A stretch of 64,000 bases of DNA, taken from the NCBI GenBank assembly GCA_963422465.1, contig OY730170.1, forward strand, positions 2,952,379 through 3,016,378, given 5' to 3'. This document shows, one piece after another, positions 1 through 30,581 of this stretch. The position numbers were made by a program, and so were the translations under genes. How positions within the stretch are numbered: the first letter of the stretch is position 1; each line of letters starts with the position of its first letter. This stretch comes from Lichina pygmaea. Taxonomy: Eukaryota; Ascomycota; Lichinomycetes; Lichinales; Lichinaceae. The notes beneath the pieces are model-generated. The model was not told the origin of the DNA and made no database searches. It saw only the letters and a list, made by a program, of their open reading frames with translations.

Positions 1-1234
1 CAGTAGTGGACAGAACACCACTCTCCAAAGACAAGGGACAAGTGATGAAGGAGACCAAGAGCCTGAGACTGAGTGTCCATGGCACGACGATCAGAACAGA
101 AGAATTCGACTTGGTCCAGATACCACACAAAGTTATATTGGGACTTCCGTGGTTGGAAAAACAAAACCCAAGGATTGACTGGAAAAGAAGGCAACTAGTC
201 TTTCCGGATGAAACACTGGTCATGTCAGAACCAGGGGTGATGATTAAAGAAATCTCACTGACACAGTGGAAGAAATACCACCAGCGCGGGGAGGCCTGTG
301 TGGCCTGGATGAAACCCCGAACACAACAACTTTGCACCACACAAGGCGCCGTGGGCAAGACTCAGGCACCGCAGTTGCCAAGTGAGTATAAAGAATACCA
401 GGAGATGTTCGAAGAAACAGCGATCGTGACACTACCGGAACATCAGGAGTGGGACCACGAGATTCTGCTGGAAGACAGAAAAAAACCCACACACAGCCCT
501 ATCTACACTCTGTCAGCAAAAAAGCTTGAGGCCCTGAGAAACTACCTGGACGAGAACCTAGCGAAAGAGTTCATAAAACCTTCAACATCACCGGCTGGAT
601 ACCCGATATTGTTTGTACCAAAGAAAGACAGCAAACTTCAACTGTGTGTTGATTATCGGCGGCTAAATGTGATTACAGTGAAAAACTGTTACCCGCTGCC
701 ATTGATATCAGAAATCCAAGACCAGATCCAAGAAGCCAAATAGTTTACCAAGTTCAACATTCAAGGCACTTTCAACCTGGTTAGGATGAAAGACAGCGAA
801 GAATGGAAGACAGCCTTTCGTACAAGGTACAGGCACTACAAGTATACCGTGATGCTATTCGGCCTTACGAATGCACCAGTGACATTCCAATCACTTATTA
901 ACACTGTCCTCCGACAATACCTGGACATATTTGTCACCACTTATATTGATGATGTCTTGGTATACACCAATGGAACTTTGGAGGAGCACAAACAGCATGT
1001 CAAGAAGATCCTACATGCACTCCAGAGAGCAGGGATGAGGTTACGCCTGGATAAAAGTGTTTTCCACACAAAGGAAGTGGAATATTTGGGGTCAATCCTG
1101 ACAACAGAAGGAATCCGAATAGACAACACAAAGACGGCAGCAGTACGAGACTGGCCAACACCCAAAAACCTCAAAGAAGTACAATCCTTCCTAGGATTTG
1201 CAAACTTCTACCGACAATTCATCAAGGACTACTC

Positions 1235-1778
1235 TGTTGCGGTCCGTACCGTACCGTCCTATCCGAGTATAGGATTAGGGCGAGAGGTGGAAGGCGGGTT
1301 GGTTCTCGCAGGAGAGGAGTGTCAAGGAGCGCGAAGGGGTTTGGTGGAACGTGGTGGTGGTGACACCTGATCAACGGCTTCGTACAAAAGGATTGTATTG
1401 AAGTAGATCTAGTTGTCTGGATCACAACATGAGTTGAAGACAATCATTCCATAGGGGAACTATCGCCTGGCTATATAGTGCCCAGTTCGTGAGCAGAGTG
1501 AGCTCTGCTCACTTTGCTCACTTTTCATGCACGCTGCGGTGAGCTGGGTGAGCTCTGCTCACTTTGCTCACTTTTCATGCACGCTGCGGTGAGCTGGGTG
1601 AGCTCTGCTCACTTTGCTCACTTGTTCGTGCATATGCATACTGCGGCGAGCACCCCCTGGTTTGTCTCGCCGGTCACGTGACCGGTTCCCGTGTCACGCT
1701 GTCTGGTACCTCTGTCCAGTATCCTGTCTGCTGCTTTCTGTGAGTATATAAAGACTGTGTTCCTCCTGGGTCGTAACA
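1235..1778 (-). repeat. A1 3' LTR
   Basis: Direct copy of 7120-7663. On the + strand it begins TGTTGCGG and ends GTAACA, so it has TG...CA ends in both orientations. It is flanked by TACTC. It contains about 2.5 tandem copies of a roughly 50-bp unit with GAGCTCTGCTCAC (about 1490-1640). The differences I see from the other LTR are transitions. Confidence 0.95.
1745..1753 (+). promoter_or_regulatory. TATA box in the LTR facing the antisense frame
   Basis: TATATAAAG on the + strand lies 26 bp inside the LTR edge and about 75 bp upstream of the ATG of the antisense frame at 1822. A start site about 30 bp downstream would fall at the LTR edge and leave a 40-nt leader. The LTR of copy A2 keeps a TATAAATAA at the matching place although most of its LTR differs. 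Promoter function is inferred. Confidence 0.55.
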
Positions 1779-1821
1779 CTATCCTCCTCTCCATCTTTCA
1801 TTGTCTTGATGAAATCTGGTC

Positions 1822-2136
1822 ATGCCTCCAAAGTCACGTGCGACTATTAGCCGAACTCAGCTGGCTGCTCAAATCCGCGATCAGGGTTTTGTTTCACGTA
1901 CGCCCTGCAACTTTTGTGTTCTCTGTGGTCGTCCGTGCTTCCAGATGCCAGGAGAAGACAATAAGTTGAAATGTGCTGCGTGCACTCAGCGCGGAAGGTC
2001 TTGTGTCTCTGTGTCCTGGGAATCTTTGAACATGTCCCGGGACAACCTCCGTGAGGATGTTGCCGCTGACAAGGCAACACATGATGCACTCTTTGAACAA
2101 CTTGCCACAGTGCAGGCTTGTCTGTCTCGGAAGTGA
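1822..2136 (+). CDS. Antisense Cys-rich (Zn2Cys6-like) accessory frame of A1
   Basis: A 104-residue frame on the strand opposite to A1, between the chromodomain and the 3' LTR. It starts MPPKSRATISRTQLAAQIRD. Its cysteines follow C-x2-C-x6-C-x11-C-x2-C-x6-C (residues about 29-57), the spacing of fungal Zn(II)2Cys6 binuclear clusters, but without the usual basic residues between the second and third cysteines. The C-terminal part looks helical. A related frame is present at the same place in copy A2 and a more distant one in family C. The function is unknown; DNA or RNA binding is only a guess. It could also be a captured gag-like zinc module. Confidence 0.6.
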   Translation: MPPKSRATISRTQLAAQIRDQGFVSRTPCNFCVLCGRPCFQMPGEDNKLKCAACTQRGRSCVSVSWESLNMSRDNLREDVAADKATHDALFEQLATVQACLSRK

Positions 2137-5100
2137 AAGGTGTTGGAGGGCGCCGAGGTCCGTGCAAGGCAGAAGCTTCAGTGCTTGGTGAAAGAGATGG
2201 AGTCGGATGGCGAGGATTTGACTTGATCAGTCATTGACATGTCCCTCCTGCAGGCCGAGCTGTTCGGTCCTGCTCCTGCCGAAACTGTCGCAGAAGAAGC
2301 TGGCAGTTCGCGAGGTTCTTGAGTGGTTCCCAGGTATTTTCTGAGTCTGGGTATCCTTTCCACTTGACGAGGTATTGCTGACCTTTCCTAGCCAGGATCT
2401 GTTCAACCTCAAACTCTTGTTCTTCTTCGGGTTGGTAATGGAATGTTTCCTGCAAGGGTGTGCTCTGGTCGGCTGGTTCAATCATTGATATATGAAAGTT
2501 TGGATGGACTCTGGCATCTCTTGGTAGTCGCAGTCTGATGTTGACTGGTCCAGTTCTTTCTTCGACTGAAAATAGTCCAACCTTAACATGGTCCAGTTTC
2601 TTTATTCTTGGTTTCTTTGTTTTCCAATTTCTTGTGAGGAGGTAGACTTTATCCCCCTTCTTTAGCTGAGGTGCCATTTTCAATTTCTTGTCCATCTGAC
2701 GTTGCATTTTTTCTGAGGTCTCTTGAAGGTAGTGCCTCATCATTGTGTGCATTTGTTGTAGGAGCTTGTTGTGTTGGAGTGCTTTCTCCGTGTTTGGTGA
2801 AGCTCTGCTTGGCATCCTGATGTTTGCATGTTGTCCAAAATTGGCAAAAAATGGCGATTCCTTTGTTGAGTCTGATCTGTGCTGGTTGATTGCCAGCTGT
2901 GCCACCGGTAATAACTGTACCCAATTGCTGTGGGTCTTGTTGATGTAATGCCGTAAGTAAGTCTCCAGGACTTGGTTCGCTCGCTCCGTCTGGCTGTCAG
3001 TTTGTGGGTGATAGGCCGTAGACATTTTGGGTTTTGTTCCCATGGTTGCACTGATTGTCTTCCAGTAGTTGGATGTGAAGAGTTTATCTCTGTCTGTAAT
3101 GATCGTGATCAGAACTCCGTGGTCTCTGACCAATCTGTCCAGTAAAAGATGTCCCAACTGTTCTGCTGTGTGGGTTTCCTTGAATGGTACCGCTATTAGA
3201 TATTTTGTGAATCTGTCCACTATCACCATAATCGAGTCGTAGGTGATTCCTGTGACTAGGTCTTTGGACTTGGGTAGCTTTGTAATAAAGTCCATTGACA
3301 TGTCTTCCCACAGGCCTCTCGGTATCGTGTTCGGGTGTCCTTCTCCGTATGGCTTGTGTCTCCCATATTTGTTTTTCTGGCATAGTAGACACTTGCTGAT
3401 GTAGTTTGTGACATGTTGTCAGAGGTTAATGACATTGTTCCCTGCCTGTTGGATAAGGTCTGTGGTTTTGGAGATTCCTGGGTGACCATGTGCTGGATTG
3501 TTGTGGTAGTTCCTTATTAGTTCTTCAGTGTCTTCTGCCGTGAGCTTGTTGATCTGTGGCTGGGGCACCAGGTTTCCTTGCTGGTCCTGCTGTAAGATTG
3601 TTCCTTGGCGTTCATCATCTTCCATGTGGTCTTTTTGTCGGCTTAGTGCGTCTGCTCTCCCATTGTCTTGTCCAGGGGTGTACAAGATCTTGAACTTGTG
3701 TTGCCCTAGGAGTTCAGCCCATCTGACTTGCTGTCTGTTCAGCTTCTTGGTTGTCGTGAACGTTGTCAGATTCTTGTGGTCTGTGAGAATGGTGAGTTCA
3801 GAACTGCTTTCCGCGTACACTCTCCAGTGTTCAAGTGCGTTGACGACTGCCAGTAGCTCTTTATCGTGGATATCATAGTTTCGTTCTGCTTGTGTCATCT
3901 TTCGTGAGTAGTAGGCAACTGGGTGCCACTTGCTGTCTGCCTGTTGGCATAGACATGCTCCCACTGCTTGGTCTGAAGCGTCTGTCTTGATTCATGTCGG
4001 CTGGCCTGTCTTGAAGTTGAGGAGAACTGGTTCCTTGGCGCAAGCGTCCTTGAGCTGTTGGAATGCTTTTTGTTGTCTCTCTGTCCACCGGTACTCCACG
4101 TCCTTCTTTGTGAGTTCTGTCAGTGGTGTTGCCATCTGTGAGTAGTTCTTGATGAACTGTCAGTTGAAGTTGGCAAATCCCAGGAAGGCTTGTACTTCCT
4201 TAACTGATGTCGGTGTTGGCCATTGCTGAATCACTTTGATTTTCTCAGGGTCAATCTTGATCCCTTCAATCCCTATGATGTATCCGAGGAATTCAACTTC
4301 CGGTTTGTTGAACTCGCATTTCTTCGGGTTGAGCTTGAGCCCTGCCTCTTGTAGGCATCGTAGAACATCCTTCACATGTTTGGTATGTTCCTGTTGTGTG
4401 TTCGAGTAGACAAGAATGTCGTCCAGGTAGGTGATAGCTGTTTGGTCCAGGTGTGCTCTGATGATGTTGTTGATCAATGCTTGACATGTTGCTGGTGTGT
4501 TTGTGAGTCCGAATAGCATAACCAGATACTTGTAGTGTCCATATCAGGTTCTGAAGGCTGTCTTCCATTCTTCTCCTTTTTTCATGTGTATCAGGTTGTA
4601 TGCTCCTTTCAAGTCCAGCTTGGTAAAGATTGTAGCTTGGCTGATCCTGTCTCGCAATTTGTTCGCATTTGGCAACAGATATCAGTTCTTGATGGTAATG
4701 TCGTTGAGTTTCCTGTAGTCCACACAAAGTCGAAGACTTCCGTCTTTCTTTGGTGCAAATAGTATCGGGTATCCTGCTGGTGATTGAGATTCTCGAATGA
4801 AACCCTTTTTCAGGTTTTCCTCCAGGTACTCGCGAAGTACTTGGAGCTCTTTCTCTGATAACTGGTAAATTGGTCCAAATCCTGGCTCTGTCCCTGGTTG
4901 CAACTTGATCTCATGATCCCAAGGTTGGTGCTTAGGCAACACTGCTGTTGTTGTCTCTTCCTGAAAGAGGTTATCATACCCAGGTCAGTACTCTTCAGGG
5001 ATCTCCAGAGGGTTAACAACTTCCTCTCTCTTCATCTCTGACTGTTTGGCCACCTGGTTCCGGGGTGTGCCTGTCAAGGCAGACCTCTTCTTTTGAGAGT

Positions 5101-7109
5101 TGTCCTTTCTGTCGGTGAGGTTCCACTGAGGACTCCTTCCCTCATCTGTCCACGCCTTCTGCGGCTGGTAACAGGTCCGAGCTGTGTTGTTAGTGCAGTT
5201 CCTAAACGTGAGTACTCCTGTCTTCCAGTTAACAACTGGGTTGTGCTTCTTTAGCCAAGGCATCCCCAAGTAGATATCCTGAGTGGCCAACTTGACAATA
5301 TCAAGTTGGATCCTTTCAGCATGGTGTCCGGTAACCATTTCCATTGGCTGTGTCTCATGGCAGACTAGCTCTGTCTGTCCATTTGCCATCACAAGCTGAT
5401 AGGGCTGCTGCTTGCGTCTCCTTCCAGTGCCGAGGGTATCGTAAAGTTGTCTTGAAATGTAGTTCCCACTGGCTCCAGAGTCAACAAGTGCGTATGTCCG
5501 TATCAGCGTGTTGGCGTATAGTGACACAGGCAATCGCAGGTGCTTTGCGTTGCTAGGGGTCATGTTGTTGAGCTCCTGATGTCGCCCCTTGACAAGGGAG
5601 TTCAGTCTTTTCCTGATCGAAGTGTCTTACCACTGACTGGGCAATGGGTCCAGCCATTCCCATCAGTTCTGAGGAATCTGTTCATGAATTTGTCTTGCTG
5701 ATGCTTGTCACATCCAGGCTTGAGGCAGTACTGCCAATTGTCGATGTAGCAGTTGTAGTTGTTACCTTGCTGTAGGAACATGAGGTGTTTGTGCCAATCA
5801 TGTGTGTGCCCAGGGAATGCGGTGTGTTGGCGTTTGTCCCAAAGATGGATCTCACACACATCCTTCTCGCAATTGACCCAATGCTTGTGGCAGGTGGCGT
5901 GGTAGGGTGAATGTCCTCCGTACCTTCGTAGTTGTTTGTGGTAGGTGCAGTAGTGCCTCGTGCAAAATCTCCACTGTAGTTCACCGTGCTGTAGATTTCG
6001 TGGGTCCATGCTGTAAGCATAGCTTCCTTGTGGTATTTCTTCTTTGATAGACTCGGGTTCATCTTGGTCCCCATCAGAGGTGGTTAAGGGCTCCTGTCCC
6101 TTGTCCTGACCTGTTAGTTCTGGTAGGTCCTTGCCTCCTGATGTTGCCAGTTGGTGGGCTGCTTCCAATGTCTGATCGTAGTCATCCCATTGTTCGAGGG
6201 ATAGCTGAGCCTCTCCTGGTGGGTCCTCTGGCTTGATGACATTCCAGTCTCTGTCGAGCGTATTAAGTTGCTGTCAGTGCACCTTGTTCTTTGAACGACA
6301 GTCTTTCACCATGTGGCCTAGCTTGCCACAGGCATAGCACTTCAGTGCTTTCCCCTTTTTGTTGTTCCTTCCCTTCGTGAACCTTCCCTTGTGGTGGACT
6401 GCATCCAGTTCCATGGGTGCATAGCCATATGGGTCATGTGGTGGTGCCTTGTTAGGCGGCTTGTAGTGGTTGCTCACATGCCATGCGGGGTGGCTGTATC
6501 CTCCGTCGTAGTGTTTCTCCATCGCTCGCTCAAATAGTTTGTCATCAATGTTGATTGCTTGTGCGATGAGTTCATCCAGTGTGTCGACTGCTCGTCCGTC
6601 AAAGGTGATTTCATCCTTCATGTTTTCCTTGAGTCCATGTCAGTACATGACCATCAGGGCATCGTCGTCCCAGTCGGTCAGTACTGAGTATTGTTTGAAC
6701 TGCGTGGTGTACTCTGCGGCTGAGCGTTGTTGTTTGATGTGCTGGATCATTCGTATAGCCACTTTATCTTTGTTAGATAGTCCAAGGATCTTTTTGATCT
6801 CATCCTTGAATCATGTCCATTTTGTCATCTATTCTGTTGTGCTGTCGTGGTCTCTGTTTCCTGAGAGATGTTTGTTGACGTAGGGCTTGATCCATCAATA
6901 GGCATTGCCTCTCATGTAAGTGGTTGCAAAGAGGGGCCACTTTTCCTTAGGCAGCTTCATCTCTGGTTGGAATTGAAAGTAGACTTGGAGTTGCATGAGC
7001 CAGTCGTCGACCTTGTTTCTTTCACTGTAGAACAGGTCTGGCTTGGCGACGCTGATCTTTCCATCTGGGAAGTTGGGGTTGGTTGCTCCTGAGGTACTCA
7101 TCCTTGAGG

Positions 7110-7119
7110 GTCTTCAAAG
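7110..7119 (-). other. A1 putative self-priming primer binding site
   Basis: Directly inside the 5' LTR the minus strand reads CTTTGAAGAC. The 8-mer TTGAAGAC is complementary to GTCTTCAA inside the same LTR (minus strand, 7326-7319), which lies about 30 nt downstream of a TATA-like CTATATAG (7363-7356), near the expected RNA 5' end. No complement of a tRNA 3' end (TGG...) is seen here. This is the arrangement known from Tf1 and related chromoviruses. Confidence 0.55.
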
Positions 7120-7663
7120 TGTTGCGGTCTGTACCATACTGTCCTATCCGAGTATAGGATTAGGGCGAGAGGTGGAAGGCAGGTTGGTTCTCGCAGAAGA
7201 GGAGTGTCAAGGAGTGCGAAGGGGTTTGGTGGAATGTGGTGGTGGTGACACCTAATCAATAGCTTCGTACAAAAGGATTGTATTGAAGTAGATCTAGTTG
7301 TCTGGATCACAACATGAGTTGAAGACGATTGTTCCATAGGGGAACTATCGCCTGGCTATATAGTGCCCAGTTTGTGAGCAGAGTGAGCTCTGCTCACTTT
7401 GCTCACTTTTCATGCACGCTGCGGCGAGCTGGGTGAGCTCTGCTCACTTTGCTCACTTTTCATGCACGCTGCGGCGAGCTGGGTGAGCTCTGCTCACTTT
7501 GCTCACTTGTTTGTGCATATGCATGCTGCGGTGAGCACCCCCTGGTTTGTCTCGCCAGTCACGTGACCGGTTCCCGTGTCACGCTGTCTGGTACCTCTGT
7601 CCAGTATCCTGTCTGCTGCTTTCTGTGAGTATATAAAGACTGTGTTCCTCCTGGGTCGTAACA
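7120..7663 (-). repeat. A1 5' LTR
   Basis: 544 bp, the partner of 1235-1778, followed on the + strand by the target duplication TACTC (7664-7668). It carries the same tandem GAGCTCTGCTCAC units (about 7375-7525), a sense TATA-like site at 7356-7363 and the opposite-strand TATATAAAG at 7630-7638, which here points outward into family C. Confidence 0.95.
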
Positions 7664-9548
7664 TACTCAAGAACAGCAGCAGCCTTGACAGAGTTAACCA
7701 GAAAGAACAAATCTTTCAGGTGGGGGGAGAGCCAACAAGCGGCCTTCCAGGAGTTGAAGGATAAATTCATCTCCACACCTATTTTGGCATCATTCGATCC
7801 TGAGAAGAGGATCATTCTGGAGACTGATGCCTCAGACCAAGCATTGGGATCCTGCTTGTGTCAACCAGACACCAACAACCGCTTACACCCTGTCGCGTAC
7901 TGATCAAGAAAGTTCTCTGGCCCAGAACTGAGGTATGATGTTCACGACAAAGAGTTGTTAGCAATCGTCAACGCATTCCAAGAATAGAGGCCTTACTTGG
8001 AGGGGGCAAAATACACGATAGACGTGTACTCAGACCACAAAAACTTAGCTTACTTCACAACAACAAAGAAGCTAAACCAACGACAAGTTCGATGGGCAGA
8101 GTTGTTAGCATCATACAACTTTCAAATCCTCTACCGGAAGGGCACTGAAAATGCTCAAGCGGACACCCTCAGCAGGCGACCAGACCTGATGGATAAGAAA
8201 ACAACAGAGGAACACCCAATCCTAGCGACAAAAGGACAAACCCTGGTCTATGCCCAACCCCAACTGGCAACAACGGAAACAAAGGGTTCACTCCTTACCC
8301 TTGGCCACAAGACAGCAAACAAAAAGGAAACTGTGCCAGGAAGAGCACAAGAGGAGGTGATCCGGAGGCACCATGACAGGCCTTTGCATAGACACCCCGG
8401 GCAAGATAAAACCTTGGAGAAAATCCAAAGGAACTACCACTTCAACAGAATGAAGTGCAAGGTGACAGAGTTCATCTGCAACTGCAAACAGTGCGCGAAG
8501 AACAAACCATCAAGGCATAAGCCCTACAGGCAGGCACAGCAGATGGACCTACCTGAGGCACCATGGGAAACTATCATGATGGATTTTGTGGTCAAGTTGC
8601 CAAAGTCAATAGACCCAGCAACAAAGGTGGTATACAATAGTATTTTGGTGGTTGTCGACAAACTCACCAAATACACCCACCTGGTCCTATGGAAAGAGTC
8701 AGGAACTGCGAACAAACTTGCGAGTGTCCTACTCAGAGAGCTGGTAAGCCACCAAGGGCTACCAAAGACAATCATCTCAGATCAAGACAAACTCTTCACC
8801 TCGAAATTCTGGAACACGTGGACAAGGCAACTTGGCATTGATACAAGGATGTCAACAGCCTACCACCCACAAACTGACAGACAAACTGAGCAGACAAACC
8901 AGACAATGGAGCAGTATCTACAACACTACGTCAACCACCAGCAGAACAACTGGGTGGAACTGCTACCAATAGCCCAGTTTGCGTACAACGACCAGCAACA
9001 CAGTGTGACAGGGACAACACTGTTCTTTGTGAACTACAGAAGAAACCCCCGATAGCAGGCAACAGCAGGAGGCAATGTTATTGATGTTAGCAAACTCGCT
9101 GCTATGCACAAGATGATGAAAACAACGATCGACCATGCCCAGAACACCACCACCCGCCAGTTACACAACAAAAGGTTGAAGGGACCAACCCTGGAAAGAG
9201 GGGATAAGGTCTACCTATCAACAAAAAACCTGCGCTCAAAGCGACCGAGCAAAAAGCTGGACCATGTACGAATCAGACTATTCGAAATCGAGAAGCGCAC
9301 TGGGAAGGTCAACTATTGACTGAGACTGCCACGAAAAGCAAGGATACACCAAGTATTCCACGTCTTGCTGCTCAAACCAGCACCCAGCGACGCAGAGGTC
9401 GAAACAGAATAGAACTTTGAGGACGACAAAGAAGAGTACAATGTTGAAAGGATTCTGGATAGTCAAAGGAACAGACAGAAGACTGAGTACCTGGTGAAGT
9501 GGTTAGGATTTGACGAAGAGGAGAATTCATGGGAACCAACCGAGAACT

Positions 9549-9998
9549 TCAGCTCTGCGATGAACCAGAAACTGGTGGATTACCACCAAGCAAATCCGCA
9601 GCAACCAGGTCTGACAGAGACAACAGCTTGAGAGAAGCCAAAGCCTCCGAAGAGAAGACATCCTCAAAGAACAGCGGAGCAGCAGCTTGACAGGCCTCCT
9701 GTTTGCGGATAACACAGAGGGCCTCTTGTTCCTGAGCATCAAGGGACTCTTGATCCTTGATGGCTGACAGCTCACGACGGATGGCATCAGCCTCCTTCTG
9801 TGAGAGACAACCCAGCTGCCAGCAGAGGTGGATCTGCCGGGGAAGCAGCTTTGACAGTTGGTCATCAGTCTCCCGCAGCTGAGCCTCAAGCTGCTCGCGC
9901 TCAAGTTCCATCTTCTTCCATTCTGATTCCGAGAGATGAAGGTCACAGCGACAACCCTTCTTGATGCACCGACAACAAAAAGATGATGCAGAACTCAC
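9549..9998 (-). CDS. Antisense Cys-rich frame of family C
   Basis: An open frame of about 150 codons on the strand opposite to element C. It overlaps the end of the chromodomain region and runs toward the 3' LTR. The same frame stays open upstream for some 60 bp. Including that part, the cysteines can be read as C-x2-C-x6-C-x8-C-x2-C-x6-C, close to the pattern of the antisense frame in A1. A leucine- and glutamate-rich, probably coiled-coil segment follows (ELEREQLEAQL). No TATA box facing it is seen in this LTR. It belongs to a fossil element and its function is unknown. Confidence 0.4.
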   Translation of the reverse strand: MSSASSFCCRCIKKGCRCDLHLSESEWKKMELEREQLEAQLRETDDQLSKLLPRQIHLCWQLGCLSQKEADAIRRELSAIKDQESLDAQEQEALCVIRKQEACQAAAPLFFEDVFSSEALASLKLLSLSDLVAADLLGGNPPVSGSSQS

Positions 9999-10182
9999 AA
10001 CACACTTGGTGTGGTCGCAACAACAAGCACCGCATGCAATTTTTGATTCCTTGCCTATTTTGCCAACATGACAAGAGAGAAAACCACAACGACAAGTTCG
10101 AGTTGTCTGGCTTTAGTTCATGGCAAAAGAGGAGCAGGAACAAAAAGGATCTGGGGACAGAACCCTTGGAGGGAGGGGATAG

Positions 10183-10648
10183 TGTTAAGGCCTAGGCCGG
10201 AACAGCCCAGGTAAGTGAGGGAGAGATGTTAGTCATGCGGAACAACATCCGACTGATCCGGTGGACGAGCAAGAGCTAAGCGAGGAGCTCGTCCGGTGGA
10301 CAAGCAGGAGCTAAGCGAGGAGCTTGTCCGGTGGACGAGCAGGAGCTAAGCAAGGAGCTTGTCCGGTGGACAAGCAGGAGCTAAGCGAGAAGCTTGTCCA
10401 CGCAAAAGGATGATACCTCTCGAGGAGACCCCCCCCCTTGGGGCATCTGTATAAAGACCCCCAAAGAGCCCGGAGGGATTAGCTCTCCAGGCTGAACACA
10501 TGCAAGCAATACAAACCCATCGTACGGAGACAATAGCACAGGAGAGTTACCCCACCTGTCTATTCCTCTACCGAGTCCCTGACTAGAATCCGCCCACGAA
10601 GCAACAGACTGTACCGGTTTCTGTGTGAACCCAGCCCGGCCTTTAACA
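10183..10648 (+). repeat. Family C 3' LTR
   Basis: 466 bp with inverted ends TGTTAAGGCC and GGCCTTTAACA, preceded by a purine tract GAGGGAGGGGATAG (10169-10182). It contains a sense TATA-like TGTATAAAG (about 10449). It is followed by ACCAT, probably the right-hand target duplication; the left one is outside the window. Confidence 0.9.
10255..10397 (+). repeat. Tandem 35-36 bp repeats in the family C LTR
   Basis: About four copies of a unit containing GTCCGGTGGACAAGCAGGAG followed by CTAAGCGAGGAGCTT. The unit holds the small palindrome GTCCGGTGGAC. It lies upstream of the LTR TATA box, where enhancer-like repeats are common in LTRs. Confidence 0.85.
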
Positions 10649-14063: not shown

Positions 14064-17000
14064 TCAAAGACATAAACCAGTACAAGAACTTCTGTAGTAG
14101 CTCTGGGTTTGAAATAATAGTGGTGAAGTCTTGGGGATTAAAAGAGACTTGTTGTCTTTGTCTTGAATAAAGAGAGCATGAAGAGGTGATATGTTTTGCA
14201 GTTTCTTCTCAGCTTTCTGTAACTCTTTGTAGAGCTTCAGATTGTTTTTGTGTGGCTTTTGACAGAAAGTCTGCCAGCCTGGATAGCTTCTTCTTTTCTT
14301 CTCTTCCCATTGGTCTTCCCACTCTTTAGTAAAGAGCTTTTGTAGTTCTTTCTTTGAACTAGCCTGGTTAGTAGTTATTTGACTTAACCAAGTGAATTTC
14401 CACTTAGAAGAGATAGTTGAGGATTCCTTTAAAGGTTTCTTCAAGAGAGAGGCATAGCTGGAAATAGTGGAAAAGATACTGTCAAGAAAGTATTTGAGAG
14501 GGGAGTTTTGAATAGAAGAAAGAAAACAGGCAGTGCGAAATTTAAAGTATAGGTCTAGAGGTAGAAGAAAAAGCTCACTCTCTAATAGAAAAGAAGGAGT
14601 GGCTTTGAAGGCACCCCCAATAAGTCTTAGGCATCTGTTTTGAAATGAAACAAGAGAAGAGATATTGGAGGATTTTCTTAGAGGGTTAAACCAGATCCCC
14701 ACTGCATAGCTCAGTAGAGATCTCAGTATAGCAGTGTACACCAGACGTGATGTGTGAACTGGAAAGCCCCAAGTAGAATAGGAAGTTCTAGAAAGAGAAG
14801 AGAGTGCTTTCTGTGCTTTTTGAAGAATAATCCTCTGGTGTTTGTGCCAGTGGAGCTTTGCATCTAGGTACACTCCAAGTACTCGCACTTCTTCTTTTGG
14901 TTTGAGAATCACATTCCCCAGTCTGAGCTTGAGCTGAAGATTGTCTGATCTTCTTCTGGAAAAATGAAGTATTTCATATTTCTCAGGAGAGAAGACCATT
15001 CCATGTCTTGCAGCCCATGATAGACATTTGAGGTGTGTGTTCTTTAACTTCAGAAGGTTACTTTTCAAGGAGTGACCAAAAGCAAGCAGATTTGTATCAT
15101 CTGCAAACCCCAGGGCAGATACACCAGAAGAGGGAGTATGCACAGTCTCATGCAATTCAGAAATGTAGAATAGAAAAAGAATAGGGGATAATGGAGAACC
15201 TTGAGGAACTCCACAATGAATAGGAATAGAATAAGACTCAGAATCATCAAAGACAAGAGTGGTAGAGCGCTTATCACAGAAGGAGTAGATCCAGGAAGCT
15301 AGCCAGGCAGGTATTCCTTTTCTTTTCAGAATTTGCTGTAGTATCTTGGGGAGAACTCTGTCATAGGCTCCTGAGATATCCAGTGAGAGTAGGGATGCAA
15401 CCATGCCTTCCTTCCAGACTTTTTCCACTTGGGAGGTTAGAAGGAAAAGTGCTGCTTCTGTGGATCTTCCTTTCCTAAAGCCCATCTGGATATCTGGCAA
15501 TAGTCCAGCTTCTTCTGCTATCTTGCTTAGTCTGGCTGCAGCAATAGCTTCCATCAGCTTGCCTGTTGTGTTTAGCAGAGCTATAGGGCGCCAGGCTTTA
15601 GCTTGATTGTAGGTTCCCTTGCCAGGTTTCCTCAAGCAGACTGTTTTTGCACTCTTAAATCTTTCAGGGAAGTACTCCAGTTTCCAGCATGTTGAAGTCA
15701 GAATAGCTAGAGCTTGGCAGAACCTAGGCCCCAGAGCTCTCAGAAATCCATTTGGCAGCTTATCTCTCCCTCCTGCTGTGAAAGGTTTCTTCTTGGCCAG
15801 AATTTGCTCCACTTCTTCACATGTTACCTCCTGGGAGAGCTGTATCTCAGAGATAGTCTGGGAGCTTTCTGAGCCTGGTTCTGGAACTAGAGCTTTTGGA
15901 AAGAACTGTTGTGAGAAGGCTTTAGTCTTTTCCTCAAAGGTTTTGGCTATTCCTTCTTGTGTTTCCAGGTCAGGAACCAGAGGAAGATCAGGAGTCTTGT
16001 TGGCTTTGGACTTTCCCCACTTTGCAAGCTTCCAGAAGTTTGAAGAGCTGGACAGCTCATGGATTTGGTGTCTGAAAGTGTTCTGTTTTCCATCTCTGAC
16101 TGCCTTTTTCTTGAGCTTAGTTGCTTGCTCAAGTTCCTCTTGACTTGCTTGCCTTTTTTGCACTTTTCTTCTTACTCTTCTTTCCTCTTTAACCTTGTTT
16201 TGGATCTCTTGATTCCACCAGGGAACTGAGTGGCCAGATTGCTTCTGGAGCTGTGTGGATTTGCTTGCTATTTCTTGGAGAAAGTTGTCAAGATACTCCA
16301 AGTACTCATCCACTTCATATTTGTCTTGGAAGTGGAAGAGCAGGTGTAGCTTCTCACACTCTACTCTTGCAAGGTTTGAGTCCAGTGTTCTCCAGTTTCT
16401 TTCTGGTTTCCAGATTTTCCTTGGAGGATCCAGGTCCAGGCAGGTTAGTACAGGTCTGTGGTCAGACCCATGAAAGAACTGAAAAGCCACTTTAGAGAAA
16501 ATCAGAGAGTTAGAAAGAGAAGAAGAAATAAAAGACAGATCAATAGAAGAACATGGTTTTTCAGAAAGAGATCTTGCTCTGGTAGGGGTGAAAGGTGCAA
16601 TAGCTAAATCCAGATTTAAATCTTTCATTAGGTCTTGAAACTTGTTTGCAGTCTCAGAGTACAGTCTTCTTTTCTTTGACCAGTCTGGGTGGTGAAGATT
16701 TGAGTCTGTGAGAAGAATATGTTGTCCTTGTTCTTGTAAAGCATTTTGGAGTAAACAGAGAAGAGCTTCTGATGCCTCTGTGTAGTTTTCTTGACTTGAT
16801 GGGGTGAAGTAGAGATTATGTACCCAAAGAGAAGTAGAAGAGTTTTCCAAGTAGATTTCAAGAGAAACAAAGTTTTTATTCCAGAAGGTAGAATGAAGAG
16901 AAGAGAGTTTCAGATTTTTATTAATAAGAAAAAGTGTTCTGCCAATCTCTGAACAGTAGAGAGGAAGAAAGGAAGAGAAAACAGTTGAAGTGCTTGTTTC

Positions 17001-17138
17001 TAGGTGAGGGTTTTTCCAGGGCTCTTGAAGTGCAATAATGTCCACCTCTTGGAGAGCTGAGGTTGCTAGCAGTAGCTCTTGGACTGATTGGCTTTTTTGC
17101 ACATTATACTGGAGAAGTGTCAGCTTTGTGTCTTTCAT
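14064..17138 (-). CDS. LINE L2 ORF2: endonuclease-reverse transcriptase
   Basis: 1024 residues. The N-terminal AP-endonuclease-like domain shows LLQYNVQKS, ALQEPW, LLTDSNLHHPDW and GSDHRPV. The reverse transcriptase shows LLSLDISGAYDRV, CGVPQGSPLSPILFLFYIS and ALGFADDTNLLAF, with the catalytic FADD intact. Compared with L3, a deletion of roughly 100 bp near 14205 removes the C-terminal Cys motif (CMCGQ...SC) and shifts the last residues into another frame, so the protein end is abnormal. The start codon overlaps the ORF1 stop as ATGA (17138-17135), which suggests translation by termination-reinitiation. This copy is probably not active. Confidence 0.9.
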   Translation of the reverse strand: MKDTKLTLLQYNVQKSQSVQELLLATSALQEVDIIALQEPWKNPHLETSTSTVFSSFLPLYCSEIGRTLFLINKNLKLSSLHSTFWNKNFVSLEIYLENSSTSLWVHNLYFTPSSQENYTEASEALLCLLQNALQEQGQHILLTDSNLHHPDWSKKRRLYSETANKFQDLMKDLNLDLAIAPFTPTRARSLSEKPCSSIDLSFISSSLSNSLIFSKVAFQFFHGSDHRPVLTCLDLDPPRKIWKPERNWRTLDSNLARVECEKLHLLFHFQDKYEVDEYLEYLDNFLQEIASKSTQLQKQSGHSVPWWNQEIQNKVKEERRVRRKVQKRQASQEELEQATKLKKKAVRDGKQNTFRHQIHELSSSSNFWKLAKWGKSKANKTPDLPLVPDLETQEGIAKTFEEKTKAFSQQFFPKALVPEPGSESSQTISEIQLSQEVTCEEVEQILAKKKPFTAGGRDKLPNGFLRALGPRFCQALAILTSTCWKLEYFPERFKSAKTVCLRKPGKGTYNQAKAWRPIALLNTTGKLMEAIAAARLSKIAEEAGLLPDIQMGFRKGRSTEAALFLLTSQVEKVWKEGMVASLLSLDISGAYDRVLPKILQQILKRKGIPAWLASWIYSFCDKRSTTLVFDDSESYSIPIHCGVPQGSPLSPILFLFYISELHETVHTPSSGVSALGFADDTNLLAFGHSLKSNLLKLKNTHLKCLSWAARHGMVFSPEKYEILHFSRRRSDNLQLKLRLGNVILKPKEEVRVLGVYLDAKLHWHKHQRIILQKAQKALSSLSRTSYSTWGFPVHTSRLVYTAILRSLLSYAVGIWFNPLRKSSNISSLVSFQNRCLRLIGGAFKATPSFLLESELFLLPLDLYFKFRTACFLSSIQNSPLKYFLDSIFSTISSYASLLKKPLKESSTISSKWKFTWLSQITTNQASSKKELQKLFTKEWEDQWEEKKRRSYPGWQTFCQKPHKNNLKLYKELQKAEKKLQNISPLHALFIQDKDNKSLLIPKTSPLLFQTQSYYRSSCTGLCL

Positions 17139-19034: not shown

Positions 19035-19877
19035 GGGCTGCCTGGGCATATGTTGGCTTGGTGTTTTGTTTTTGGACTTGTTTCTTAATGCTGTCCAGTC
19101 TCTCAAGTATCTTCTGGAGACTCTGGGAGTTAGGTGAGTGAGTAGAGACATTTTTGTCCAGAGCTTCTGCCACTTTGGACAGAATACTATCCTATGCTTT
19201 TTTGATGTGTTGGGGAGCTTTTGTGTGGATAAGCTATTCTTCCACTAGCTGGGGAGGTGTCAGCCCCTTCTCTTCTTCTTTTTCTTGAGTCTGGGACTGG
19301 TCTGTCAGGGAGTTAGCCACTGGGGGTTGCTGGGAGCTTGGAGAAGGCTGGTTTTCTTTCTCTTTCTCTGGTTTTTTCTTTGACATTATGTGATTTTGGG
19401 TGTCTTCCAGCAGTTCTTTTTGGCTGGGATTGGTGAGACTCTTTTGGAGGCTTCTTCCAGTTGTTCGCAAAGAGTCACCTGGTTCCTAGCAGTAGTTGCA
19501 CAATCCTGGGACCACTCCCCAAGACTGTACTTTCCTGGGCAGTCTTTTCCAACTAGACTCTAGGGAAATCTGGTTGTATTAACTCAAGCTAGGGACCACA
19601 CCCCCTGCCTGAGCTTTCCTAGAGTTTTTCAACTCTACCAGCACTAGAGGCAAGCTCTAAACTATTCCTCTTATCCTGGGAGCCCTGATCTCCTTGTTGG
19701 TGGGTGTTTCTCACTTTTAGGAGAGGTTTCGTGTTTTATCTCTGATAGACTGGGAGTGCTGGCTCAATCCTGAGTTTTAGTCTCAGGGCTGATTGTTCCA
19801 AGGTAGGTAGGGCTTTGCCCAGTCCTTCAGAATACCTCTGGTCCCTCTCACTCTTGTTGTGGCTGGGTGGTTGGTAG
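19035..19877 (-). mobile_element. LINE L1, ORF1 N-terminus and 5' UTR
   Basis: Continuation of L1 to the right of L2. It holds the ORF1 N-terminal part (about 19395-19050; YAQAAPQVQ matches the ORF1 region of L2 and joins the segment left of L2) and the 5' leader (19400-19877). It is interrupted at 19877 by B1. The leader has two similar blocks with CTGGGACCA and CCTGGGCAG. Confidence 0.75.
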
Positions 19878-20148
19878 TGTGACGAGGCAATGGCAGAGCA
19901 GAACTCAAGTCTAACTGATTTGGTAACCTTGACCTGACTTGGCTTGAGACTTGAGACTTGGATTGATGTACAAGGCGAAAGACGAGGAAGGAAAAGAGAA
20001 AAGAAGAGAAGAAGCTGGGGGAGCAGGAGAAGTTCTTATAGGCAGGGGATCAGGCAACAGCGGAGTAAACAGGCAAACAGTGCAGATGGGACTTCCCAGC
20101 AAGGTGTGTGGCTTGTGCCAGATATGCAACTGGGCCAGAACTGTGACA
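19878..20148 (-). repeat. B1 3' LTR
   Basis: 271 bp beginning TGTGACGAGG and ending CTGTGACA on the + strand. It is a direct copy of 24925-25195, with differences that all appear to be transitions. Confidence 0.95.
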
Positions 20149-23100
20149 TTACCCCCCTCCTTCACATGGTGAACTCCTGTGAGCCTCAGGCCACTCGTGG
20201 GTGTAGTTCCGTGGCTGTGGTTTCCTTGGGTATTTCTCATGGAAGTTGTAGATAGTGTTTTTGGTGTTGTCAAGATGCTTAATAGGCTCTTCAGTGGTAT
20301 CTTTGATTGGCTATCCAGACTATTTGACCAGGTACTTGAACTTCTGTCAAGATGTTGCTGGCTTGGAGTCAAGGATTTCTTCAACCTGGAACTCTTCATC
20401 TGTGTCTTGACCAATGACAGGGCCAGGGTGTTCATTTGATTGGCCAGGGATAGGATTAGCAGGTGTCAGACGTAGAAGGGAAACATGAAAGACAGGGTAG
20501 ATCTTGAGAGTGTGTGGAAGCTCCAGATAGCAGGCACAGCTTCCGACTGTCTTCAACACCTTGAATAGTCCAATCCACTTGTTGTCAAGCTTTTTGCATG
20601 GGCGGCGTATCCTGATGTTCTTGGTATTCAGCCAAACAAGATCTCCAGTTTGATAGGATAGTGACGGGACTTGATGCAAATTGGCGGCGTGAGCTTGAGC
20701 TTCCTGGGATAGTCGGAGTTCAGCTTGCAACTGTTCCAGAATCTGCGTCATTTCTCCAGAGATTTCCATAGCATCTTGGTTGCAGGCTTCACCCATAGGT
20801 GTGATGCTGAGCTGTGGATGGAACCCTTTGTTGGCAAAGAACGGTGACATGCCAGAGGAATCAGACTGGGAGTTGTTCTGCGTGAACTCTGCCAGAGGAA
20901 GCCATTGGACCCAGTCATCTTGGAGATAGTTGACATAGGATCTCAGGTAGTGTTCAAGCTCCTGATTCTCTTGTTCTGTCTGACCATCTGTCTCTGGGTG
21001 GTGTCCTGAGGATAGTCGTAGCATGACGTCAAGATGGGCACAGAGTGCTTTCCAGAATAAGCTGACAAACTGACCTCCTCTGTCTGAGATAATGCTCCTG
21101 GGTAAGCCATGGGTACAGACAACAAACTGGATGAACATCCAGACAAGATGCGAGGTTGTCATCTCAGCACATGGCACAAAGTGGTGTTCTTTGGTGAGAC
21201 AGTCAGTGATGACCCAGATGTGCTTGGCACCAGGGAAGCAGGCATCTCTTGACTTGGGCAAGTCAGTAATGAAATCCATAGCCAGATCCTGCCAACATTG
21301 CTGAGGCACGGGAAGAGACAGCAGCTCTCCTTGGCGATCACAGGCAGGCTTTGCTCGAGAGCAGACATGACAATTCCTGATGTACTGCTGTATGATGTTC
21401 ACCATCTTTGGCCAATAGTACCAACGAGACAGAAGATTGTGGGTCTTGGCAATCCCAGTGTGGCCAGCCATTGCTTGGTCATGGGCTTCTTGGAACAGGT
21501 GTAGGCGTAGCTTATCGTTCTCAGGGATCCAGAGTTGGTTCTTGTAGAAGAGACAGTTATTTTCCAAGCTGCAGTCTGAGAGAGACACTTCTTGACTGTG
21601 CCTGACACTATCCCTTAGCATCTGTGACACTGTTGCCACTGGATCATCTTCAGCAAGGTTGTTATAGGCAGCTTGGATAATGTCTGAAAGAGGTGTAGTA
21701 TCAGGTTCAGTGTCAACTGGTGCAGCTTCTGAACGTCTCAGGATCTGGATAGGCTTGACTTGAACCTCTGAATGTGCAAGATTCTTGGGCTTGAGGATGA
21801 CTTGCTCCATGAAGTCTTGACAGGGATCACTGTCTGATGGGAGGTCTTGGGAATATCGAGTGAGGGCGTCGGCCTTGCACTGACTGCCTGGACGGTAGCT
21901 GATCTTGAAATTGAAGCGTGACAAGAACTCACTCCAACAGGCTTGACGGCGGGAAAAGCGCTTTGACAACATGAAGTACTCCAAGTTCTTGTGATCAGAG
22001 ATCACTTTGACAGGTTCTGGAGATTCTTCAAGCTCTGCTCGCTATTCTTCAAAGGCACAGACAATTACCAGCAACTCTTTGTCGTAGATTTCGTAGTTGC
22101 ATTCTGCCGGCAGGTGGCAGCATGACAAGAAGGCAACAGGGCGTAGAACTCCTTCATGGTCTGGCTGTGACAGGACAGCACCAGAGACATAGTCAGAAGT
22201 GTCAGTCTCAACAACACACTCCTTCTCCGGATCAAAGTGCTGCAGGATGGGTGCAGTGCTGAACGCCTTCTTGATGCTTTCAAACAAGCGCTGCTCTGGG
22301 GTTTCCCACTTGAAGGCAACATTCTTCTTGGTCAGAGCTGTGAGCAGGGATGCAAGCTTGGCAAAGTCTTTGATGAACTGGCGGTAGAAGTTTGCAAAGA
22401 CAATGAAGCTCTGCACTTCCTTGAGACTGGCAGAAGGCTTCCACTCCTTGATGGCGTCAGTCTTGGCTGGGTCCATACTCACAGATCCAGGTCAGCCGTC
22501 TTCAGTGGCAGACTGAATGATGAGGCCAAGGTACTTGACTTGATGGACTTCAAAGTCACACTTGGAGATGTCAACTTGCAGGCTTGCATCTCGTAGTCGA
22601 CTGAGAACAAGCTTGACATGCTTCTGGTGTTCCTTGAGTGTCTGACTGTAGATAAGGATGTTATCCACATAGGTAGTGCTAAAGACGTCAAGGATGTCAG
22701 GTCCCAAAACATCATTGATGTAGTTCTGGAATGTGCTTGGAGTATTGGCAAGACCAAAGGGCATGACAAGGTATTCGTAGAGGCCTGAGCGTGTGCGGAA
22801 CACAGTCTTCCATTCTTCACCTTCCTTCATCCGGATACGGTTGAAGGCACCAACAATGTCAAGCTTGGTGTACCACACAGCTTTGCAAAGCTGGTCCAAC
22901 ATCTCCCGGATCAGTGGTAGGGGGTAACAGTTCTTGATGGTGATAGTGTTGAGTACTCTGTAGTCTACACAGAAACACAATCCACCTTCTGGCTTCTTGA
23001 CAAAGAGGACTGGTGCAGCAGTAGGTGATGAAGATGCTTGAATGAAGCCCTTGTTCAGGTTCTCTGTCAGGTATTTCTTGAGAACTTCAAGTTCTTCTCT

Positions 23101-24913: not shown

Positions 24914-24922
24914 GTCTTTCGC
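24914..24922 (-). other. B1 putative self-priming primer binding site
   Basis: Two bases inside the 5' LTR the minus strand reads GCGAAAGAC. The LTR carries the exact complement GTCTTTCGC on the same strand (25030-25022). This fits priming by the RNA 5' end as in Tf1-type elements. In B2 both arms carry the variant ACAAAAGAC/GTCTTTTGT. Confidence 0.6.
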
Positions 24923-24924
24923 AG

Positions 24925-25195
24925 TGTGACAAGGCAATGGCAGAGCAGAACTCAAGCCTAACTGATTTGGTAACCTTGACCTGACTTGGCTTGAGACTTG
25001 AGACTTGGATTGATGTACAAGGCGAAAGACAAGGAAGGAAAAGAGAAAAGAAGAGAAGAAGCTGGGGGAGCAGGAGAAGTTCTTATAGGCAGGGGATCAG
25101 GCAACGGCGGAGCAAACAGGCAAACAGTGCAGATGGGACTTCCCGGCAAGGTGCGTGGCTTGTGCCAGATATGCAACTGGGCCAGAACCGTGACA
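24925..25195 (-). repeat. B1 5' LTR
   Basis: 271 bp, partner of 19878-20148, followed by the target duplication GGTAG and then by the remaining 5' part of L1. Confidence 0.95.
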
Positions 25196-26195: not shown

Positions 26196-26974
26196 TTACC
26201 CCCCTCCTTCACATGGTGAACTCCTGTGAGCCTCAGGCCGCTTGTGGGCGTAGTTCTGTGACTGTGGTTTCCTTGGGTATTTCTTATGGAAGTTGTAGAT
26301 AGCGTCTTTGGTGTTGTCAAGATGCTCAATAGGCTCTTCAGTGGTATCTTTGATTGGCCATCCAGACTATTTGACCAGGTACTTGAACTTCTGTCAAGAT
26401 GTTGCTGGCTTGGAGTCAAGGATTTCTTCAACCTGGAACTCTTCATCTGTGTCTTGACCAATGACAGGGCCAGAGTGTTCATTTGATTGGCCAGGGATAG
26501 GATTAGCAGGTGTCAGACGTAGAAGGGAAACGTGAAAGACAGGGTAGATCTTGAGAGTGTGTGGAAGCTCCAGATGGCAGGCACAGCTTCCAACTGTCTT
26601 CAACACCTTGAATAGTCCAATCCACTTGTCGTCAAGCTTTTTGCATGGGCGGCGTGTCCTGATGTTCTTGGTATTCAGCCAAACAAGATCTCCAGTTTGA
26701 TAGGATAGTGACAGGACTTGATGCAAATTGGTGGCGTGAGCTTGAGCTTCCTGGGATAGTCGGAGTTCAGCTTGCAACTGTTCCAGAATCTGCGTTATTT
26801 CTCCAGAGATTTCCATAGCATCTTGGTTGCAGGCTTCACCCATGGGTGTGATGCTGAGCCGTGGATGGAACTCTTTGTTGGCAAAGAACAGTGACATGCC
26901 AGAGGAATCAGACTGGGAGTTGTTCTGCGTGAACTCTGCCAGAGGAAGCCATTGGACCCAGTCATCTTGGAGAT

Positions 26975-29795: not shown

Positions 29796-29808
29796 GTGGA
29801 CTTCCCAT
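27145..29808 (-). CDS. LINE L3 ORF2, 5'-truncated reverse transcriptase
   Basis: An 887-codon open frame. Apart from the first few codons, which come from the A2 flank, it is ORF2 of the LINE from the end of the endonuclease (GSDHRPV) through an intact reverse transcriptase (LLSLDISGAYDRV, CGVPQGSPLSPILFLFYIS, ALGFADDTNLLAF). The C-terminal Cys motif CMCGQAEETVKHITSSC, lost in L2, is kept here. The initiating region and endonuclease are missing, so the copy cannot work on its own. Confidence 0.9.
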   Translation of the reverse strand: MGSPPIDLSFISSSLSNSLIFSKIALQFFHGSDHRPVLTSLDLDSPRKTWKPERNWKTLDTNLAKQECNNLQLPFHFQDKHEVDEYLEYLNHFLQEIADRCTELQKQSSHSVPWWNQEIQTKVKQERRIRRQVLRGQASQEELEEATKLKKKAVREGKQNTFRKQVHELASSSKFWKLAKWGKSKANKTPDLPLVPDLETQEGLAKSFEEKTKSFSAQFFPEARVPEPSTESHQSTPEIQLSQEVTTEEVEQILNKKKPFTAGGKDKLPNGFLKALGPKFCQAIAVLTSTCWRLEYFPEKFKNAKTVCLRKPGKGIYNQAKAWRPIALLNTTGKLMEAITAARLSKVAEEAKLLPEIQMGFRKGRSTESALFLLTSQVEKVWKEGMVASLLSLDISGAYDRVLPEILQKILERKGIPLWLTSWIFSFCTRRTTTLVFDDSESSSIPIHCGVPQGSPLSPILFLFYISELHKTVHSPTTGVSALGFADDTNLLAFGHSLKSNLLKLKNTHLKCLSWAARHGIVFSPEKYEILHFSRRRSDNLQLKLRLGNVILKPKEEVRVLGVYLDAKLHWHKHQRIILQKAQKALSSFSRTSYSTWGFPVLTARLVYTAILRSVLSYAVGIWFNPLRKSSNISSLIIFQNKCLRLIGGAFKATPSFLLESELFLLPLDLYFKFRTACFLSSIQTSSLKDFLDSTFSTISSYASSLRKPLKKSSTISPNWKFTWLSQITTNQASSKKELQILFTKEWENQWEEKKRKGYAGWQVFCQKPHYNNLKLYKELQKAEASLLLQTRTGRIGLASFLFRAGVPDFPTPLCMCGQAEETVKHITSSCSLYSSQRQHALFNPQDFTTIISNPELLQKFLYWFMSLKRLNQFNLAFKLHYSHSNI

Positions 29809-30034
29809 GACAAGTGCATTCAGCGCACTTCAACTTATTGTTGTTGTCAGACATTCGGAAGCAGGGCTTGTGGTTCAAAACACAGAAGTCACACAGAGCA
29901 AGTAACACAAAGTTATAATCACAGATCTGGGCTACCAGTTGTTTTCGGTAAGCAGAGGTACGTGATTTTGCAGATATACTCAAGAATTCATCAGGACAAT
30001 GAATGAAGGAGAGGAGGGTAGTGTTACAACCCAT
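29801..30034 (-). CDS. Antisense Cys-rich frame of A2 (partial)
   Basis: Homologue of the frame at 1822-2136, again opposite in strand to its element. It keeps KSRT, QLVAQI, CDFCVL, KPCF and NKLKCAEC, so five of the six pattern cysteines of A1 are visible, while the extra cysteine inside the first x6 loop of A1 is not conserved. The distal part is cut off by L3. Preservation of the same spacing in two divergent subfamilies suggests the frame was once under selection. Confidence 0.5.
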
Positions 30035-30581
30035 AGGATGGGAGCCACTTATTTATAGGCAATCAGGCCGCAGGCCAGGCAAGAGGACACCATGGAAGTC
30101 AAGTGACCAACCAACAAGGAGTCACGTGACTGTCAAGACACACACAGGAGTCTTGATGCAGGATGTATGAAGTATTGAGACAATCTCACTAGTCTTGACG
30201 CAGGATGCATGAAGCATCAAGACAATCTCACCAGTCTTGACGTAGGGTGCATAACATGGTGGGACTGTCAAGACAATCTCACCTGTCTTGACATCAAGAC
30301 TGTCAAGACAATCTTGATTGTCTTGACAGGCCAGCACTATATAGTCTGATGATAGTTCCCCTATGGAACAATTGTCTTCAACTTATGTTGTGATCCAGAC
30401 AACTAGATTGACTTCAATACAATCCTTTTGTACGAAGCCATTGATCAGGTGTCACCACCACCATGTTCCACCAAACCCCTTCGCACTCCTTGACACTCCT
30501 CTCCTGCAAGAACCAACCCACCTTCCGCATCTTGCCCTTAATTCTATACTCAGTTAGGATGGCACAGTACAGACCGCAACA
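30022..30581 (+). repeat. A2 LTR
   Basis: 560 bp from TGTTACAAC to CCGCAACA. Both ends match the A1 LTR, but the middle differs and has its own repeats built on CAAGACAATCTCAC and GTCTTGAC (about 30130-30330). The TATA-like CTATATAG followed about 30 nt later by GTCTTCAA is conserved, as is an opposite-strand TATAAATAA near 30050. Confidence 0.9.

Follow-up and report, generated by a model that had tools for sequence, protein, structure and literature searches.

Organization of the locus

The DNA analysed here, a stretch of 64,000 nucleotides referred to as the window, lies on contig C2 of a genome searched as 32.5 Mb in 8 contigs. A gene for the pheromone receptor STE2 is present in this genome, which is therefore probably that of an ascomycete. 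The element A1 (sense strand -) has a 544-bp 3' LTR at 1235..1778 (-) and a 5' LTR at 7120..7663 (-), with boundaries set by sequence reading. Comparison of the two LTRs over 543 bp gave 96.3% identity, and the sequence TACTC, present before the 3' LTR and again after the 5' LTR, constitutes a 5-bp target site duplication. A polypurine tract (PPT) was recognized by sequence at 1779..1795 (-); read on the other strand, it supplies the pyrimidine-rich leader for the antisense gene described below. The 3' part of A1 pol, identified by ORF and Pfam at 2231..3301 (-), comprises integrase, a Tf2-1-like SH3 domain and a chromodomain, the last closing the ORF (Pfam Chromo, E 2e-16). Having integrase followed by a chromodomain, plus an LTR pair, A1 is a chromovirus of the Ty3/gypsy type.

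A1 is inserted into a second element, C, of sense +, which resumes at 7664 and extends to its 3' LTR at 10183..10648 (+). C-type pol sequence occurs on both sides of A1, within 1-10648, its 5' part recognized by eye; the 5' piece of C pol at 45-740 gave no match in Pfam. The 3' part of C pol continues from 1-1234 across A1 to 7664..9631 (+, by Pfam and alignment), with its stop codon at 9629-9631. Its integrase was found by Pfam and its chromodomain by alignment to A1 only, and the 5' LTR of C is located outside the window. The C 3' LTR, read from the sequence, holds a tandem repeat and a candidate TATA box at 10450-10456.

Of the element A2 the 3' LTR is located at 30022..30581 (+, by sequence). 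Family B, sense -, occupies 19855-25195 with LTRs of about 295 bp that are 94% identical, one of them at about 19855-20148; a further B-like pol piece lies at 26271-26963. No Chromo domain was detected by Pfam in the B ORF tested. In the integrase-chromodomain region A shares 43.9% identity with C and 34.7% with B. The window also contains LINE-like reverse transcriptase ORFs at 14064-17138 and 27145-29808, one of the two with an additional endonuclease domain, and the host genes for the glycine cleavage P-protein (37303-39909) and the splicing factor Bud13 (62388-63434).

The antisense frame and its copies

Opposite to the sense of A1, an ORF at 1822..2136 (+) begins with ATG and runs for 104 codons to a premature stop, with six cysteines at 1906-2004 (+) inside it. 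The preliminary description had reported this frame and its spacing C-x2-C-x6-C-x11-C-x2-C-x6-C; the spacing is correct and the ORF is real, but the gene is longer, intact A copies elsewhere in the genome having 166 codons. Comparison with these intact copies places the remainder of the A1 gene at 2137..2322 (+), in the same frame and interrupted again. The frame at 1822-2136 thus belongs to a copy, now decayed, of an antisense gene with 166 codons.

In C the corresponding frame is found as an ORF at 9552..10112 (-), open here for 187 codons, with the six-cysteine motif at 9945-10034, where the earlier reading C-x2-C-x6-C-x8-C-x2-C-x6-C holds on the - strand. Intact C copies encode 190 aa starting from an upstream Met, which a stop cuts off in the window copy. 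In A2 the first 60 codons were recognized as an ORF and by similarity to A1 at 29798..29977 (-). This copy retains five of the cysteines, as had been stated, since the similarity breaks off at about 29798, beside the start (29808, -) of the RVT_1-bearing ORF 27145-29808; in the 13 A2-type copies compared elsewhere each of the six sites is a cysteine in 13 of 13. Family B is without the antisense gene: its pol similarity to A1 reaches 20200, about 50 nt from the LTR, and so leaves no room for one. Related elements therefore manage without it.

Genome searches with the A1, the A2-type and the C protein each found at least 150 places (495, 499 and 277 candidates, respectively); the A1 and A2-type lists may overlap. 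For detailed comparison a set of 56 copies was used, 43 A1-type and 13 A2-type, with the truncated copy L028 excluded. The terminal stop of the 166-codon frame is at one position in all 56. Premature stops number 63 in this set, every one of them TGA; among the best 150 of the 495 A1-query candidates TAG and TAA are also present, at 11 of 57 interrupted places by hand count, and about 93 of the 150 are stop-free within the 104 codons searched (hand count). The frame is uninterrupted in 7 of 43 A1-type copies, a sample biased by consisting of the best genome-search matches plus twenty copies mostly picked for stop-free first 104 codons, and in 7 of 13 A2-type copies, which were loci picked mainly for open frames. 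Coding on the sense strand of this region of A was considered and rejected, as the three sense frames are closed in 56 of 56 copies. Read by eye along the A-type antisense frame, the copies L055, L056, L058, L069 and L070 look like mosaics of A1-type and A2-type sequence, an appearance which suggests recombination between the two subfamilies.

The position of the gene is fixed. In all 44 A1-type copies the inner end of an LTR lies 43 nt before the antisense ATG, so that the association with LTRs suggested as a check in the preliminary description holds throughout, and in 56 of 57 copies the antisense end of pol follows the ATG by 412-418 nt, the sequence of the one other locus ending too early. 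The tail-to-tail overlap between antisense frame and pol measures 92 nt in A1; in C it is 83 nt. In the 13 A2-type copies (12 of them with 150 nt of upstream sequence only) nothing near the ATG matches the A1 LTR, but a terminus resembling that of an LTR can be read at the equivalent place, together with the complement of the PPT.

Conserved cysteines and CpG decay

Site by site, the six motif cysteines are present in 43, 43, 42, 42, 42 and 40 of 43 A1-type copies and in 15, 16, 16, 16, 16 and 15 of 16 C copies. In A their codons are TGY in nearly every copy, whereas nine other columns of the A1-type copies are mixtures of Arg and Cys; the extra cysteines are thus products of decay and the motif cysteines are not. 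Among the polymorphic sites of the A1-type frame 83 of 126 are transitions at CpG, which shows that decay proceeds mainly via CpG mutation. Much of the cysteine-rich appearance noted in the preliminary description is therefore Arg-to-Cys decay at CpG, from which the six conserved motif cysteines are excepted. Three DNA-methyltransferase-like matches are found in the genome (C4:1525480, C7:1329739 and C6:2989554), and these genes might stand behind the CpG decay of the repeats.

A six-frame reading of the window yields the six-cysteine pattern twice, and none of 200 second-order Markov shuffles contains it. That the frame arose by chance, as an antisense reflection of pol or LTR sequence which CpG decay has enriched in Cys, is rejected and left with next to no probability: CpG decay does make Cys, as the nine mixed columns and the 83 CpG transitions show, but TGY codons encode the motif cysteines in nearly every copy, the overlap with pol is limited to 92 nt, the shuffles lack the pattern, the six cysteines are conserved and dN/dS is 0.19.

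Selection on the frame

The last value comes from the comparison of A1 with A2 in the claimed frame (pN 0.191, pS 0.591; 44 x 13 copies, 572 pairs); the other five frames gave 1.23, 1.22, 1.00, 0.30 and 1.45 in the same pairs, in which the truncated L028 is included and distorts the reverse frames. The frame at 0.30 is the reverse frame sharing third codon positions, and it contains stops in 56 of 56 copies. When transversions only are counted, which is unaffected by CpG decay, dN/dS is 0.33 in the claimed frame versus 0.64 in the frame that shares third positions. Three single A1-A2 pairs gave 0.15-0.18 (Fisher p 2e-20 to 1e-17), so that A1 versus A2 values lie at 0.15-0.19 altogether, far from the 1 that would have spoken against the preliminary description, and with the cysteines conserved.

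C1 and C2 were compared with 15 C1 copies against one C2 copy (15 pairs) and yielded a dN/dS of 0.30 (single pair p 3e-9), with control frames at 1.09, 1.56, 1.02, 0.40 and 1.34; the frame at 0.40 shares third positions, and its stops were left uncounted. Within subfamilies dN/dS is 0.45 for A1, 0.37 for A2 and 0.37 for C1. Control frames are equally low in places (0.38 in A2; 0.39 and 0.40 in C1), and the case consequently rests on the comparisons between subfamilies, by which the antisense frame is shown to be under purifying selection as a protein.

Relationship of the A and C proteins

The alignment of the A and C antisense proteins has 20 invariant columns, including the six Cys, a Gly and a Trp. 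Smith-Waterman scores were judged against 2,000 shuffles in which the cysteines were kept fixed. A2 x C2 scored 88 versus 42.0 +/- 8.9 (0/2000 shuffles) and A1 x C2 scored 75 (3/2000); A2 x C1 with 60 is not clear of the shuffles (89/2000), and A1 x C1 with 50 is not significant (397/2000). A comparison of A with C by hhalign was weak (E 0.061, probability 0.9%, from very shallow profiles). Judged by these alignments, the A and C proteins are most likely homologous beyond the cysteines, with the signal coming mainly from C2.

Most matches in the protein database come from this species or from one closely related to it, and one of them is identical to a place in the genome. They include a third A-like form (P0127, P0128 and P0131). 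P0127, of 165 aa, has the six cysteines with a middle loop of x10 and at most 65% identity among the genome matches listed, and the distant relative P0136 has six cysteines in C-type spacing and at most 35% identity among the genome matches listed. As neither has a close match among those listed, the third A-like form and P0136 probably stem from genomes other than this one. Viral contigs scanned with both the A and the C alignment contained no relative.

Protein features

The A and C proteins have the same layout: a basic N-terminal part, the six-cysteine cluster, a Trp, predicted helices and an acidic C-terminus, with net charges of +4 to +10 at the N-terminus and -2 to -7 at the C-terminus. 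The AlphaFold model of A, calculated zinc-free, consists of one helix at residues 66-128 with block-mean pLDDT of 82-96 over residues 71-130, and of a part below 50 across the motif (residues 1-64). The zinc-free AlphaFold model of C has helices at 65-104 and 108-147, predicted with moderate confidence, and block means of 48-57 in the motif.

The Zn(II)2Cys6 pattern of fungal DNA-binding proteins is C-x2-C-x6-C-x5-12-C-x2-C-x6-8-C, and the A and C proteins satisfy it. The resemblance to the Gal4-type domain (PF00172) extends to the order C-x2-C-x6-C-x(8-11)-C-x2-C-x6-C followed by a predicted helix; the A and C proteins do not, however, match the Pfam model of that domain. Pfam Zn_clus (PF00172) gave no match to the antisense proteins up to E 10, with HMMER filters that discard most matches above E 0.1. 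Pfam matches below the cut-off were DUF3716 for one A1 copy (E 0.055) and a zf-PHD-like domain for one A2 copy (E 0.0089). A profile search of the PDB with C listed nine sequences, none of them significant; CYP1/HAP1 zinc-cluster chains stand in 3rd, 4th, 7th and 8th place with E 1.1-3, in company with a capsid protein, a coiled-coil protein and RING fingers. The preliminary description's interpretation as Zn(II)2Cys6 is accordingly borne out in the cysteine spacing, but finds no match in Pfam, a best E of 1.1 for zinc-cluster chains in the PDB and low AlphaFold confidence in the motif. The genome itself has 27 Zn_clus matches, none of which coincides, by eye, with the listed places of the antisense gene.

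Candidate antisense promoter and LTR repeats

In the 3' LTR of A1 an antisense TATA box, TATATAAAG, is located at 1745..1753 (+), 69-77 nt before the antisense ATG. TATAAAG stands at -75 on the antisense strand in 43 of the 43 A1-type copies with enough upstream sequence (44 in all), and TATAAAT at -79/-80 in 13 of 13 A2-type copies; the A2 3' LTR in the window carries the antisense TATA box at 30051-30057, recognized by sequence as ATTTATA on the + strand. Transcription of the antisense gene is predicted to start near the boundary of LTR and PPT. In C no antisense TATA was seen by eye in the 190 nt before the start. The 5' LTR of A1 bears an identical antisense TATA box at 7630-7638, pointing outward to the neighbouring DNA.

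A candidate sense TATA box of the A1 LTR, the palindromic CTATATAG, was read from the sequence at 1471..1478 (-), and just upstream of it lies a 50-bp tandem repeat in 2.9 copies (1489..1632), which contains dyads GTGAGC-N3-GCTCAC. The C 3' LTR holds a 35-bp tandem repeat in 4.1 copies (10257-10399) and the A2 3' LTR tandem repeats at 30149-30252 and 30283-30328. Tandem repeats are thus found in 4 of 4 LTRs of gene-bearing elements, with units of 50 bp in A1, 42 and 18 bp in A2, 35 bp in C1 and 69 bp in C2; none is listed in the LTRs of B, the single control. Dyads, with nested ones counted repeatedly, are in excess in A1 (19 vs 1.77) and A2 (21 vs 2.31), neither count being reached in any of 300 shuffles. 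The excess is absent in C1 (80/300 shuffles), C2 (54/300) and B. Input to the dyad test was the A1 LTR minus one base at one end and the C1 LTR minus two bases at each end. A 6-3-6 dyad shared by all LTRs was rejected as a candidate, the 3-nt spacer being above every shuffle in A1 only. Repeats and dyads provide a lead towards a candidate binding target, and no more than that.

Interpretation and alternatives

The antisense frame is almost certainly a protein-coding gene. The antisense accessory gene proposed in the preliminary description is strongly supported by selection, by the kept cysteines, by the fixed position beside the 3' LTR and by the likely homology across two families. Going by their spacing, the six cysteines probably bind zinc as a cluster. 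In the mechanism proposed here they would form, on the basic N-terminal part, a binuclear zinc cluster, while the predicted long helix would make a parallel dimer; this dimer would enter the nucleus and bind nucleic acid. On balance we favour such a nuclear nucleic-acid-binding dimer. Its likeliest target would be the LTR of the element itself with its tandem repeats, and the outcome a regulation of LTR transcription, either as activator or as autorepressor; that the product is an LTR regulator is quite possible, if somewhat short of probable. The reading as a whole, an antisense accessory gene of the chromovirus families A (A1/A2) and C (C1/C2) serving as a self-encoded LTR regulator, is about evenly balanced between right and wrong. 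A more specific version is put forward only tentatively: a minimal Gal4-like factor made up of zinc cluster, coiled coil and acidic tail, transcribed from a promoter on the antisense strand of the 3' LTR, which would bind the repeats of its own LTR and co-evolve with them in each subfamily.

The gene-level evidence would equally suit an antisense accessory protein that acts other than as a regulator, be it an RNA/cDNA chaperone or a nuclear-entry or integration factor of the pre-integration complex, provided in trans to Gag-Pol. Any nucleic-acid-binding dimer would be compatible with the motif and the helix, and nuclear entry of the pre-integration complex and roles of retroviral accessory factors are treated in the available text of a review on antisense ORFs of the aORF-3R type (PMC7264820). 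We consider this explanation rather unlikely; a separate antisense LTR TATA box in A1 and A2, apart from Gag-Pol expression, fits a regulator better, as an argument from layout only. Capture of a host Zn2Cys6 gene that now drifts in the element is improbable. Zinc-cluster genes are numerous in fungi, and this genome has the 27 matches mentioned, but searches of Pfam, the PDB and a protein database gave no significant match to any host factor, the gene is present in two element families that are 44% identical in the integrase-chromodomain region, and the frame is under purifying selection. An ancient capture is conceivable. The antisense core promoter, which appears conserved in A1 and A2, would also serve a functional antisense RNA, acting by dsRNA/siRNA or by promotor interference with the open frame being incidental, and RNA-based antisense regulation has been proposed for plant elements, according to the available text of the same review (PMC7264820). 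A non-coding RNA would not, however, be expected to show codon-level purifying selection confined to a single frame when subfamilies are compared, nor conserved cysteines and stop position, which renders this possibility very improbable.

Relation to known systems

An additional antisense gene of Boty-like elements, brtn, was reportedly described by Zhao et al. in 2011 (Virology 417:248). The consulted parts of later papers place it in Boty-like Ty3/gypsy elements of Botrytis cinerea (PMC8365987, PMC7264820, PMC4227169, PMC5987419); the review counts brtn among the antisense ORFs between pol and 3' LTR (PMC7264820), and excerpts of the literature citing it mention a Monilinia transcript that resembles brtn. 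As far as these sources go, Boty shares with A and C a fungal Ty3/gypsy background with chromodomain and an additional gene antisense to gag-pol. BRTN may well be a relative of the A and C antisense protein, a comparison made by description only.

In plants the aORF-3R genes (gene23 of Grande, RIRE2, PvRetro13 and TRP28 of Retand) are likewise located antisense between pol and 3' LTR and are conserved in most copies, according to the available text of the review (PMC7264820). An own promoter and a nuclear protein are reported there for Grande, and DNA binding is predicted for TRP28 (PMC7264820, Retand paper, both as available in part). Unlike in A and C, the domains reported in these texts are TRP28 or SMC-like, and the main text of the Retand paper does not contain the word "zinc" at all. 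The same two sources, in their available parts, state that it is not known what the antisense accessory genes of LTR retrotransposons do (PMC7264820, Retand paper).

Among the titles listed in a literature search, with subscription journals mostly outside its scope, none dealt with a fungal element carrying a zinc-cluster gene in antisense. Antisense accessory genes are already known, and the version with a zinc cluster is apparently new within the titles searched. By analogy only, and as outlined in the sources consulted, HBZ of HTLV-1 resembles the proposed gene in that its antisense promoter lies within the 3' LTR and its product is a nuclear regulatory protein. HBZ dimerizes by a leucine zipper and is not known to contain a zinc cluster.

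Significance

The findings suggest that elements of both families encode their own regulator. A small protein with a zinc-cluster pattern, a predicted helix, a candidate promoter and candidate targets in the LTR would make the regulatory hypothesis directly testable, with hundreds of natural copies in several subfamilies with differing LTR repeats as test material. If true, the gene would represent a retrotransposon counterpart of Tat and HBZ, built from a fungal DNA-binding motif. The copy of the antisense promoter in the 5' LTR would then face host DNA, and the outward antisense TATA boxes of 5' LTRs could drive transcription of the host flanks.
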